From Betaproteobacteria bacterium HGW-Betaproteobacteria-2 (GTDB taxonomy: Bacteria > Pseudomonadota > Gammaproteobacteria > Burkholderiales > Methylophilaceae), in the NCBI GenBank assembly GCA_002842255.1, contig PHCM01000002.1:1-20469 (forward strand): DNA of 20,469 nucleotides. The letters are read 5' to 3'. Position 1 is the stretch's first letter. Each line of letters begins with the position of its first letter. Shown here piece after piece: positions 8,655 through 16,514 of the stretch. The position numbers and the translations under genes were made by a program. Under the pieces are notes generated by a model. It saw nothing but the letters and a program-made list of their open reading frames with translations, searched no databases and was not told the DNA's origin.

Positions 8655-8709
8655 TGCCCGTAAATTCTCTTTGATTAATTAACATTTTCCGCTCGTTATT
8701 GACACACTG

Positions 8710-8737
8710 TTTGCAATAATATAAAAATATATATAAT
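8710..8737 (+). promoter_or_regulatory. Promoter of the ArsR-RND-SQR operon
   Basis: TTTGCA (8710-8715) is followed after 16 bases by a perfect TATAAT (8732-8737). A consensus TTGACA also lies at 8699-8704 with TATAAA 15 bases after it, so two overlapping promoters are possible. The region 8690-8768 is far more AT-rich than the rest of the window. The leader to the regulator start would be about 25 bases. Confidence 0.6.
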
Positions 8738-8747
8738 ATGTTTTTAT
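8721..8747. promoter_or_regulatory. Candidate ArsR/BigR-type operator over the -10 box
   Basis: ATAAAAA (8721-8727) and TTTTTAT (8741-8747) are perfect inverted arms separated by 13 bases. The centre falls at 8734, inside the TATAAT box. AT-rich palindromes overlapping the promoter are typical binding sites of ArsR-family repressors, including the BigR/SqrR branch. The gene just downstream encodes such a repressor, so autoregulation of the operon is the natural reading. Because the region is so AT-rich, some palindromic character is expected by chance. Confidence 0.5.
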
Positions 8748-8768
8748 TAATTTTATACAGGGTGTAGT

Positions 8769-9101
8769 ATGAACGTAGCCATAGATGTCATTGATTTGAC
8801 GGCCATGCGCGCTTCAAGCGACAAGGCCAGCGCATTGCTCAAGGTGCTGGCGAATCCTGACCGCCTGTTGTTACTGTGTCAGCTGACCAAGGGTGAGCAA
8901 TGTGTCAGCGACCTGGAACAGACCCTGGGGTTGCAGCAGCCTTCGCTGTCGCAGCAGCTTACCGTGTTGCGGCAGGCAAAGCTGGTCAGCACAAGGCGTG
9001 AAGGCAAGCAGATCTATTATTCGATTACCAGTACCGAGGCGCAGGCGGTCATGCAGTTGCTGTACAGCCTGTTCTGTCAATCCTGTCGAGAGGTGGGTTG
9101 A
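8769..9101 (+). CDS. ArsR-family repressor, BigR/SqrR/YgaV-like persulfide sensor
   Basis: This 110-residue protein is a winged-helix ArsR repressor. The DNA-recognition region reads LQQPSLSQQLTVLRQAKLV, followed by the wing REGKQIYYSI. Cysteines lie at positions 37 (LLLLCQL), 45, 103 and 106 (FCQSC). Cys37 and Cys103 correspond in placement to the two reactive cysteines of BigR, SqrR and E. coli YgaV, which form a disulfide or polysulfide link on meeting reactive sulfur and then release DNA. The typical metal-binding ArsR motif ELCVCDL is absent, which argues against arsenic sensing. It is the first gene of the unit, two bases ahead of the RND adaptor, and sits under an AT-rich promoter with a palindrome. 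The family is certain; sulfur sensing is inferred from cysteine placement and the SQR gene downstream. Confidence 0.87.
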   Translation: MNVAIDVIDLTAMRASSDKASALLKVLANPDRLLLLCQLTKGEQCVSDLEQTLGLQQPSLSQQLTVLRQAKLVSTRREGKQIYYSITSTEAQAVMQLLYSLFCQSCREVG

Positions 9102-9103
9102 GT

Positions 9104-13734: not shown

Positions 13735-13746
13735 GTGATCAGGGAA

Positions 13747-15129
13747 ATGGGTATACGTGCTGTTACGATAAGCGCTTGCTTGCTGATGGGGTTCCATGCG
13801 TCATCTGCGCAAGCGATCGACCTGATGGAAGCCTGGCAGGGCGCGATCGGCAATGACCGCGGATATGCCGTGGCCGAGGCCGGCCATGGCGTTGTCGCCC
13901 CGCGGCAGAAACAGGCGGCAGCCCTCTGGCGGCCCAATGTGGTGCTCAATGCTGGTGCCGGTTATGGACGCGACAACACCGATACGCGTGGCGCCTACTT
14001 TGCCGGCCCCGGCTTCGGCCAGTCCGAGGATATCGCTTTCAGTACCTCGGTCAACAGCGGCACCACGCACAACTGGGCGCTGACGGCGACCCAGCCGCTA
14101 TATGACCCCAAGCGCCGCGCCGAACAGCAGCAGTTGCTGATGTCGGCCGACCAGTCCGACCTTGAATGGAACGCGGCCAGACAATCGTTGATGCAGAGTG
14201 TGGCCGAGCGCTATTTCGATCTGGCCGTGGCGCAGGAATCCCTGCGCGTCCTGCAACAGCAGAAGCAGGCGGTCGAACGGCTGGCGACCGAGATGCGCGA
14301 CCGCTTCCAGCTGGGCGCGACACCGATCACCGATACCCATGAATCCGAGGCGCGGTTGGCCTCGGTGCAGGCCCAGGTGCTGTACGCGGAGATGGAAGTC
14401 GAAACCAGGAAAAACATTCTGGCCGACACCACCGGGCTTTCCCCTGAACAACTGTTTGCCCTGTTGCCGCAACGGGTCAGCGAAGAATTGATGCAAACCC
14501 CGCTGGAGCAGTGGATCAGCGAAGCGGAAAGCGGCAATTTCGATATCCGCATGAAAGCCATCGCCGGTGATCTGGCACGGCAGGAAGCCCGCAAGTTCAC
14601 GCTGGAATCCTCGGTGAAACTGGATGCAATAGCGCAGGCCGGCCGCGATTACATCAGCGGTAGCGGTGATTTCGGTTCGGCCAGCAATGCGCAGACCAGC
14701 GGCATGGTCGGCGTGCAGGTGTCGGTGCCGCTGTTTACCGGCGGTTATCGCAGCGCCCGTGAGGAGGAAGCCTTGCGGCTGGCGGACAAGGCCGATGCCG
14801 AAATGGCACTGGCAAGGCAACAGGTCGCACAGTCGATACGTGCTACCTGGCTCAACCTGAAGGCTGGCAGCGGCCGCGTACAGGCGCTGACGCAAGCGCT
14901 GGAGGCGAGCCGTTTGCGGCTGGATGCGACGACGCTGGGTCATCAGGTCGGCGACCGCACCACGCTGGATGTGATCAACGCCGAGAATGATGTCGCCAGT
15001 GCCGAACTGGCGTTGACGCAAGCGAAAGTGAATCAGGTATTGAACCAGATCCGGTTGGCTGCTTTGGCCGGAAAACTGGACGAGAGTGTGTTGACTGTTT
15101 TTAACCGCGATATGCTGGCAGGAAACTAG
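13747..15129 (+). CDS. TolC-family outer-membrane efflux protein
   Basis: This 460-residue protein is the outer-membrane channel of the tripartite pump. A signal peptide ends in HASSAQA before Ile24; there is no lipobox, so it is TolC-like rather than an OprM-type lipoprotein. Two outer-membrane efflux repeats are visible: the first with LTATQPLYDPKRRAEQQ and RYFDLAVAQESLRVL, the second with VSVPLFTGGYRSAREEEA and the closing VGDRTTLDVINAENDVASAELALTQAK. These are the alpha-barrel hallmarks of the family. ATG 13747 has AGGGAA very close upstream. A GTG at 13735, directly after the previous stop, would add four residues and cannot be excluded. SQR follows after 30 bases. Having its own TolC partner means the unit encodes a complete envelope-spanning pump. 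Confidence 0.92.
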   Translation: MGIRAVTISACLLMGFHASSAQAIDLMEAWQGAIGNDRGYAVAEAGHGVVAPRQKQAAALWRPNVVLNAGAGYGRDNTDTRGAYFAGPGFGQSEDIAFSTSVNSGTTHNWALTATQPLYDPKRRAEQQQLLMSADQSDLEWNAARQSLMQSVAERYFDLAVAQESLRVLQQQKQAVERLATEMRDRFQLGATPITDTHESEARLASVQAQVLYAEMEVETRKNILADTTGLSPEQLFALLPQRVSEELMQTPLEQWISEAESGNFDIRMKAIAGDLARQEARKFTLESSVKLDAIAQAGRDYISGSGDFGSASNAQTSGMVGVQVSVPLFTGGYRSAREEEALRLADKADAEMALARQQVAQSIRATWLNLKAGSGRVQALTQALEASRLRLDATTLGHQVGDRTTLDVINAENDVASAELALTQAKVNQVLNQIRLAALAGKLDESVLTVFNRDMLAGN

Positions 15130-15159
15130 CCGGCAGGCGCTTGGAGGAAAGGAAACGAA

Positions 15160-16431
15160 ATGGCTCAAATCGTCATCATGGGAGCAGGGACTGGCGGCAT
15201 GCCGGCCGCCTACGAATTAAGGGCAAAGCTGGACGCATCGCATGAGGTCACCGTGGTGAATGCGGTCGATTATTTCCAGTTTGTTCCCTCCAACCCCTGG
15301 CTGGCAGTAGGCTGGCGCAAACGTAAGGACATCACGTTCCAGATCAAGCCATATCTCGAGCGGAAGGGCATCAATTTCATCGCGCAACGTGTACAACGCA
15401 TCGATGCGGACAATAACATCCTGCATCTGGCTGATGAAAGCAGCCTGCAATACGATTATCTGGTCATCACCACAGGCCCCAAGCTGGCTTTTGATGAAGT
15501 GCCGGGTGCCGGGCCGGAATTGCATACCCGCTCGATCTGCAACGTCGATCATGCCGAGCAGGCATGGAGCCATTATCAGGATTTGTTACAGGACCCGGGA
15601 CCGGTCATCATCGGCGCCATGGCTGGCGCTTCCTGTTTCGGTCCGGCTTACGAGTTCGCCTTTATCGTCAACCGTGATTTGCGCAAACGCAAATTGCGCA
15701 AACGGGTGCCGATGACTTTCGTCACCAGCGAACCTTATATCGGCCACATGGGGCTGGGTGGTGTCGGCGATTCCAAATCCATGCTGGAGAGCGATTTCCG
15801 CAACAATGACATCAAATGGATCACCAATGCCAAGGTCACCAAAGTCGAAGCCGGCAAGATGTACGTGACTGAAATGGATGATGAGGGCCAGCCGAAAAAG
15901 GAACATGAACTGCCGTTCAAGTACAGCATGATGCTGCCCTCATTCAAGGGAGTGGATGCGGTGGCGGCGGTCGAGGGCCTGTGCAATCCGCGCGGTTTCG
16001 TGCTGATCGACGAGCGCCAGCGCAGCATGAAATATCCCAACATTTATTCGGCCGGTGTCTGCGTCGCCATTCCGCCGGTGGAAGTGACGCCGGTACCGAC
16101 CGGTGCGCCGAAGACCGGTTACATGATCGAGACCATGGTGACGGCCATCGTCGATAACATCATCGCCGAACTGGCGGGCAAATCTGCAGAAAGCAAGGCA
16201 ACCTGGAATGCGATCTGCCTTGCCGACATGGGCAACACCGGTGCGGTGTTCGTCGCACTGCCGCAGATCCCGCCGCGCAACCTGAACTGGTACAACAAAG
16301 GCAAGTGGGTACACTGGGCCAAAATCGCCTTCGAGAAATACTTCATCTACAAGATGAAGCGCGGTAATTCCGAACCGATCTATGAAAAATACATTCTCAA
16401 GCTGTTGGGTATTGAGCGTGTGGAGCGTTGA
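15160..16431 (+). CDS. sqr: Sulfide:quinone oxidoreductase
   Basis: SQR oxidises sulfide to zero-valent or polysulfide sulfur at the cytoplasmic membrane and passes electrons through FAD to quinone. The 423-residue protein begins [17 protein letters not shown], an FAD-binding GxGxxG fold. Three cysteines match those of the Acidithiobacillus ferrooxidans enzyme in position and context: Cys127 (RSICNVDHA), Cys159 ([11 protein letters not shown]) and Cys353 (NAICLADMG). The last two form the catalytic sulfur-bridged pair in that enzyme. The C-terminus, around [15 protein letters not shown] and [12 protein letters not shown], fits the amphipathic helices that dock on the membrane. A very strong ribosome binding site, GGAGGAAAGGAAA, precedes ATG 15160. 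It is the last gene of the operon. Flavocytochrome c sulfide dehydrogenase is the main alternative, but there is no export signal, so SQR is preferred. Confidence 0.9.
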
Positions 16432-16482
16432 TGAGGTACCGATGTATCAGCCTTGTTTACTGATGTGTCGTTGATAAGATAC

Positions 16483-16514
16483 AAAAGGGAAGCCGTTTAC
16501 CGGCTTCCCTTTTT
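16483..16514. terminator. Bidirectional intrinsic terminator
   Basis: AAAAGGGAAGCCG and CGGCTTCCCTTTT form 13 perfect pairs around TTTAC, followed by a T-run on the plus strand. It ends the SQR operon. Read on the other strand the stem also ends in CCCTTTT, so it can serve the convergent lipoprotein gene. Confidence 0.92.

Follow-up and report, generated by a model that had tools for sequence, protein, structure and literature searches.

A Burkholderiales gene unit combining a predicted persulfide sensor, an RND efflux pump and a sulfide:quinone oxidoreductase

ArsR regulators that respond to sulfane sulfur appear to act also on RND (resistance-nodulation-division) efflux pumps, which a 2025 paper places among membrane proteins that are shown or likely to transport sulfur compounds (PMC12423496). 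Here, we analyse a six-gene unit that combines an ArsR repressor, a tripartite RND pump, a YgaP-type membrane protein and a sulfide:quinone oxidoreductase (SQR). The unit lies in a stretch of 20,469 nucleotides, hereafter the window, from Betaproteobacteria bacterium HGW-Betaproteobacteria-2 (order Burkholderiales, Methylophilaceae; assembly GCA_002842255.1, contig PHCM01000002.1, positions 1 to 20,469). The closest described systems each resemble it in part. Like the window, the BigR operon of Xylella and Agrobacterium places a dithiol ArsR over sulfide handling, and the solved structure closest to the window regulator is 3pqj, a 'biofilm growth-associated repressor'. The SqrR regulon of Rhodobacter capsulatus has a sulfane-sulfur-responsive ArsR, and regulators of this group have sqr as one of their targets (PMC12423496). 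The MexAB-OprM pump of Pseudomonas aeruginosa is an RND pump that sulfane sulfur derepresses through MexR (PMC11211675). In YgaVP of Escherichia coli, the available account has a BigR-type regulator beside a YgaP-type membrane domain.

The six genes of the window occupy 8769-16431 on the plus strand and are separated by gaps of 0-30 bp (ArsR-adaptor 2, adaptor-permease 13, permease-YgaP-type 22, YgaP-type-TolC 0 and TolC-SQR 30 bp). A first-pass annotation made from the sequence alone had read this order and tight spacing correctly. The identities that it assigned to the six genes are each backed by a Pfam match, and the AT-rich promoter and strong terminator that it placed on the flanks are both present. 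Judged from their spacing, the six genes probably form a single transcript.

Co-occurrence and linkage of the pump with SQR

To quantify how often the pump and SQR occur together, we searched one set of 220 genomes of the order, the window's own included, for each of the two genes and required ≥55% identity for both. This excluded one genome whose sole permease match was at 44%, two whose SQR matches reached no more than 43-44%, and second SQR matches of 43-47% elsewhere. Among the 219 other genomes, the permease was found in 72 and the SQR in 67. Both genes were present in 45 genomes, the permease only in 27, the SQR only in 22 and neither in 125 (odds ratio 9.5, Fisher p = 2e-12, kinship ignored).

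The same association was seen from the side of the SQR. A search for close SQR relatives, with one genome per species, yielded 423 confirmed stretches, the best 80 of which were taken as loci. At least 7 kb of upstream sequence was available in 53 of these, and 48 of the 53 have a same-strand permease there. A YgaP-type gene accompanies the upstream permease in 43 of the 48 and a TolC-type gene in 39. The loci without a permease are L015, L026, L036, L042 and L066, the last of which has a permease in two pieces. Among the remaining 27 loci, with less than 7 kb upstream, we found a long permease match in eight, a TolC-type gene in 22 and permease fragments in several more. The SQR-anchored loci come from betaproteobacterial genera that include Variovorax, Curvibacter, Polaromonas, Comamonas, Undibacterium and Sapientia, from a large number of metagenome assemblies and from a few other sources (such as a Desulfobulbus bin, L040). 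The co-occurrence of pump and SQR beyond this genome, which the first-pass annotation had claimed, thus holds in both searches.

The two genes lie within 8 kb of each other in 20 of the 45 two-gene genomes (21 pairs), and these 20 genomes belong to 15 families. The annotation had suggested such a neighbourhood search and had named co-occurrence confined to this one genome as an outcome that would speak against its reading, which is not what the search returned. Ten of the 21 linked pairs have the SQR upstream of the permease by 1-158 bp, nine have it downstream and two are divergent. All seven of the SQR-upstream loci that were read have the SQR between the adaptor and the permease. Phylogenetic trees of 192 permeases and 118 SQRs (FastTree) placed the order's upstream and downstream arrangements in separate permease clades and in two separate SQR clades, which fits more than one origin. 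A single old linkage followed by rearrangement and loss is a possible alternative. The permease tree required at least 22 changes between the linked and unlinked states. On the SQR tree the minimum was 30, which is too high, as loci truncated by contig ends were counted.

Linkage of this kind could also be chance or history, that is, an old inherited neighbourhood without functional coupling. Its concentration in one order would agree with this, as would the kinship that the co-occurrence statistic ignores, and in 25 of the 45 two-gene genomes the genes were not found within 8 kb, although some of these assemblies are in many pieces. We nevertheless consider a purely historical linkage very unlikely, given the several gene orders spread over distinct clades of both permease and SQR, the short spacing in the ten upstream pairs and the spread of the linked genomes over many families.

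An SQR also lies nearby, in divergent orientation, at more distant permeases (41-45% identity) from other orders of the class (L123, L124 and L217).

Partners of the permease and a possible route for sulfur export

The neighbourhood of the permease was compared among three sets of fetched loci: 60 of the 72 permease loci of the order, 38 loci of class-level orthologues and 40 controls around the nearest paralogues (40-45% identity). The 12 order loci left out contain 7 of the 20 linked genomes. Genes in the fetched loci are our own open-frame choices rather than annotations. A YgaP-type gene on the same strand and within 2.5 kb of the permease was found in 54/60 order, 3/38 class and 1/40 control loci. 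An SQR was near the permease in 12/60, 2/38 and 1/40 loci, respectively. For Pfam tallies, the nearest neighbours were taken from 30 randomly drawn loci per set. The 147 order proteins included 21 with the YgaP-type transmembrane domain, 20 ArsR (HTH_5), 13 rhodanese and five thioredoxin matches. Among the 142 control proteins, YgaP-type, ArsR and rhodanese families lay outside the 25 families listed and so number at most two each. They were likewise outside the 25 families listed for the 148 class proteins, with at most three each. Taken together, the tallies indicate that the sulfur setting belongs to the branch of the permease found in the order and not to the whole family.

Many of the order loci without an SQR (among L141-L168) share another layout, in which gpmI/envC/ctpA-like genes flank the permease on one side and a rhodanese-glutaredoxin-secB-like block on the other, with a dithiol ArsR immediately upstream. 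Several of these gene names were assigned from sequence starts, while iPGM, rhodanese and glutaredoxin are in the Pfam tallies. In L175, L178 and L179, and in L157 without the SQR, the adaptor-(SQR)-permease-YgaP set is near cbb3 cytochrome oxidase genes, which hints at a tie to micro-oxic respiration. The cbb3-side neighbours that were checked are FixP-like and CcoG (L175), FixO-like and Fnr (L178) and HemN-like (L157); the rest were assigned by clustering. A replicon of Vibrio sp. HDW18 has a divergent YgaP-type (DUF2892) gene (L246:6532-6723) beside the adaptor of a 56%-identical permease. VexLM of Vibrio may be an orthologous pump; according to a review, no compound tested was a substrate of VexLM (PMC10225521).

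The 69-residue YgaP-type protein of the window has no rhodanese domain, as a Pfam scan of the chain gave PF11127 alone. Its Cys54 column is invariant in all 106 YgaP-type copies near a permease, the window's included. The protein aligns weakly with the YgaP membrane domain 2mpn (E-value of 0.42), where a serine occupies the Cys54 position. In the YgaP study, cysteines 64 and 159 had been changed to serine, and residue 159 was reported near the SCN- site (PMC4730233). We infer that Cys54 corresponds to Cys159 of YgaP. The same study describes a response of the E. coli YgaP membrane domain to SCN- and proposes that SCN- is exported (PMC4730233). This raises the prospect that the pump exports another sulfur anion or a thiol conjugate (thiocyanate, thiosulfate, or a thiol derived from cyanide or an electrophile). 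Its working partners would then be rhodanese and the YgaP-type protein, with the SQR supplying sulfur in some lineages. The invariant cysteine, the excess of YgaP-type genes over SQRs near the order's permeases and the rhodanese matches among their neighbours all agree with such a substrate. There is, however, no rhodanese gene within the window's unit, and we know of no RND pump that moves small inorganic anions. We therefore regard this alternative as quite unlikely.

The permease matches 15 NCBIfam models, and all stay under cut-off (the top one, RND_permease_2, at 438.7 of 1250). No curated model assigns it to the classical multidrug pumps (HAE-1, AcrB type), and membership of the heavy-metal RND pumps (CusA/CzcA) was likewise rejected (TIGR00914, 251.2 of 701.5). 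The AcrB-type proton-relay Asp pair is kept in 152/152 family rows. The Lys940 position, placed via the MdtB alignment, is Arg in the same 152/152 rows and in 40/40 controls; the change appears conservative and does not separate the family from the controls. We take the relay positions Asp407, Asp408 and Lys940 to follow AcrB numbering. Permeases without any cysteine make up 124/150 orthologues (window included; two low-scoring class rows were left out of the count), compared with 2/40 nearest paralogues and 2/30 other RND permeases from relatives, which have on average 3.1 and 2.2 cysteines. A cysteine-free permease would suit exposure to reactive sulfur. The cysteine poverty of the adaptor was rejected as a special sign, as 34 of 35 paralogue adaptors have no cysteine past the first 35 residues.

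These properties also bear on whether the pump might be a multidrug or lipid-poison exporter that is merely co-induced with the SQR. Sulfide stress would damage respiration and membranes, the cell would respond by making more SQR along with a broad pump, and no sulfur species would be exported. MexAB-OprM offers a precedent, since its derepression by sulfane sulfur via MexR results in antibiotic resistance (PMC11211675), and the permease family is also found without an SQR in other contexts. The absence of any NCBIfam pump model at cut-off argues against co-induction, as does the insertion of the SQR between adaptor and permease; the YgaP-type and rhodanese neighbours in the order point to sulfur chemistry instead. 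On balance, a co-induced pump seems unlikely.

The window ArsR has four cysteines (Cys37, 45, 103 and 106), and the alignment places Cys37 and Cys103 in both BigR/SqrR cysteine columns, in line with the BigR/SqrR-like cysteines claimed in the first-pass annotation. Its score of 111.8 bits against the BigR equivalog model NF040642 is below the cut-off of 155, so the regulator probably works like BigR but is not classed as BigR proper. Counted over the whole fetched locus, 25/60 order, 3/38 class and 0/40 control loci contain an ArsR in which both BigR columns are cysteine. In 13 order loci, of which one is shared with these 25, an ArsR has two near-end cysteines but not the first. A gene for a CsoR-type regulator lies close to the permease and the YgaP-type gene in L139, L171 and L172 (checked by PF02583 in L172, assigned via clustering in the other two) and may encode a further thiol-sensing regulator.

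We tentatively propose that the six genes form a sulfide-response unit in which sulfide oxidation is coupled to export of a sulfane-sulfur product. Sulfide would lift the sulfane-sulfur level, upon which the dithiol ArsR would form a polysulfide bridge and leave its AT-rich operator, a step suggested by its two cysteines and by characterised relatives (PMC12423496). The SQR, as its homology and active-site cysteines suggest, would turn sulfide into sulfane sulfur and pass the electrons to quinone. Polysulfide, S8 or a small organic persulfide would then reach the periplasmic side, perhaps helped across the inner membrane by the YgaP-type protein. Finally, the adaptor, the cysteine-free RND permease and the TolC channel would expel the product across the outer membrane, protecting thiols and respiration. 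While the gene content of the unit and its recurrence are observed directly, the exported substrate is suggested by gene company alone and is the least certain part of the mechanism.

Several observations weigh against this proposal, beginning with the two-gene genomes mentioned above in which linkage was not found. Another is the variability of the regulator. There are 51 named SQR-anchored loci with an adaptor and a permease, and in 44 of these an ArsR-like gene lies no more than 1.8 kb upstream of the adaptor. The BigR pair is present in only four of the 44 regulators (L004, L037, L055 and L077), with L004 alone co-directional as in the window, while the other 40 are divergent and lack the pair. 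It is also missing from the four order loci read with a downstream SQR (L181-L184). We therefore rejected the dithiol sensor as a conserved part of the unit. As the regulator varies, the constant core consists of the pump, the YgaP-type protein and the SQR, and the window's dithiol sensor is apparently one of at least two regulatory solutions. Most of the 40 pair-less regulators read LCDLVC near their end and have no first cysteine of the BigR type, and they may represent an undescribed sensor type.

ArsR/SmtB regulators often sense metals, and this LCDLVC-like motif in most named relatives might thus be taken as a sign of a unit for metal-sulfide or heavy-metal efflux whose ArsR senses thiols, as might a weak match of the adaptor to a CzcB-type model. 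With TIGR00999 at 126.3 of 319.3 and TIGR00914 also far under its cut-off, and with two persulfide-sensor cysteines in the window ArsR, we consider metal efflux highly improbable.

Further points against sulfane-sulfur export concern the permease and the fate of its presumed substrate. The neighbours of class-level orthologues are led by LysR (13) and AI-2E transporter (11) proteins, by which we rejected the permease as a sulfur-linked pump everywhere. With only 2/38 of these loci having an SQR near, the permease is not inherently tied to SQR. The loss of cysteines is one family-wide trait, equally seen in class-level orthologues (33/38 without cysteine). Lastly, a Blh-type persulfide dioxygenase is commoner in linked genomes (10/20) than in other SQR genomes (6/47; odds ratio 6.8, p = 0.003, kinship ignored). 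If export substituted for oxidation, linked genomes would be expected to lack persulfide dioxygenase, and we found the opposite in a search that covered the Blh type. Export would thus complement oxidation and not replace it. The window's own genome gave no Blh match in an assembly that is only 74% complete.

A broader version of the proposal is that the nearly cysteine-free RND permease subfamily of this order is a dedicated sulfane-sulfur exporter, which handles polysulfide or persulfide with a stand-alone YgaP protein. It would have been paired with SQR more than once in evolution, in some cases with sqr inserted between the gene for the adaptor and that for the permease, and in some with placement beside cbb3 oxidase genes. 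We consider this possible but doubtful.

Features of the unit and its flanks

The features of the unit are collected in Table 1. As the list of open reading frames had a floor of 70 aa, the 69-aa DUF2892 gene was read separately. The permease start was set at the ATG at 10269 because position 10266 is GAC. The best solved relative of the SQR is the sulfide-quinone reductase 3sz0 (605 bits, residues 2-422), with which Cys127, 159 and 353 of the window SQR are aligned. We take the SQR to be of type I, and these three cysteines to be catalytic.

Table 1. Predicted features of the unit in the window, with the evidence for each
Feature	Position	Strand	Evidence
Promoter-like region with AT-rich imperfect palindrome over a -10-like element	8699..8747	+	Putative ArsR operator
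ArsR/SmtB repressor, BigR/SqrR type, 110 aa	8769..9101	+	HTH_5 45 bits; Cys37 and Cys103 at BigR positions
RND periplasmic adaptor (membrane fusion protein), 383 aa	9104..10255	+	TIGR01730 193.7 bits (cut-off 94.9); HlyD_D23 66
RND permease, 1077 aa, zero cysteine	10269..13502	+	PF00873/ACR_tran 495.9 bits, profile 11-1019 of 1021
YgaP-type transmembrane domain protein (DUF2892), 69 aa, Cys54	13525..13734	+	PF11127 44.1 bits (threshold 25.3)
TolC-type outer-membrane efflux protein, 464 aa, GTG start	13735..15129	+	OEP/PF02321 154.9 bits (threshold 22); TIGR01844 210.4 (threshold 225)
Sulfide:quinone oxidoreductase, type I-like, 423 aa	15160..16431	+	Pyr_redox_2 70 bits; Cys127/159/353
Intrinsic terminator hairpin	16483..16513	+	13-bp stem, 13 perfect pairs; listed by the scan on the minus strand, plus strand also has a T-run after it

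The imperfect palindrome in the promoter-like region spans 8721-8747 (12+3+12, with arms at 8721-8732 and 8736-8747), and the near relative L004 has an identical 27-bp palindrome upstream of its ArsR. Two sigma-70-like matches are located at 8699 and 8710. The scanned region contains five such sites versus 3.9 expected, so that the count by itself is no evidence. We did not retain the promoter and terminator scans as statistical evidence, as their match counts were not clearly above those of shuffled sequences.

Just 5' of the unit and on the same strand is a 2-oxoglutarate/Fe dioxygenase-like gene (7872-8618; PF10014, 246 bits). Convergent to the unit across the terminator is a minus-strand reading frame (16552-16911) with a weak glycine-zipper match (PF05433, 23.4, with a gathering score of 24.2). 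Among the six genomes of the same genus (G000 and G449-G453, the window's own included), three have the 1126-aa permease open frame (G000, G451 and G453). The unit may thus be patchy within the genus, some of these assemblies being incomplete.

Comparison with known systems

To our knowledge, the route by which zero-valent sulfur made by SQR leaves bacteria is not settled. The present pump family, with its ties to SQR, rhodanese, a YgaP-type protein and, in part, persulfide-sensor-like regulators, provides a named genetic target for sulfur export, which is at hand in environmental genera including Variovorax, Polaromonas, Curvibacter and Undibacterium. If the proposal is true, an RND subfamily that falls under every NCBIfam pump cut-off would gain a native role. 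MexAB-OprM resembles the window pump in its derepression, but it is a drug pump controlled by a MarR-family sensor, and its operon is not known to contain an SQR.

The first-pass annotation had singled out the unit as the best candidate for an undescribed system. No description of the operon was found in the listed titles and abstract openings of the open literature, most subscription papers and supplements being beyond reach. The operon is not described in the accessible parts of PMC8269239, PMC4725956, PMC6504805 and PMC10509353, and those of PMC10812762 contain no matching passage. The underlying idea is not wholly undescribed, because RND pumps are already listed in print among the likely targets of sulfane-sulfur-responsive ArsR regulators (PMC12423496). 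Section 2.1 of that paper names RND pumps as likely targets, as proposed here, without an ArsR-adaptor-permease-DUF2892-TolC-SQR unit (the comparison covers that section, and overlap with Table S1 and Figure S2 of the paper is possible). The window differs from the SqrR regulon in joining sqr and a dedicated RND pump into one unit, an arrangement likewise absent from section 2.1 (PMC12423496). The described target of BigR, in the accessible part of PMC5823870, is the sulfurtransferase/dioxygenase Blh, whereas the window regulator precedes an SQR and an RND pump. Finally, YgaP of the YgaVP system has its own rhodanese domain, according to the available text of PMC4730233, whereas in the window the YgaP-type membrane domain stands alone, beside a pump and an SQR.

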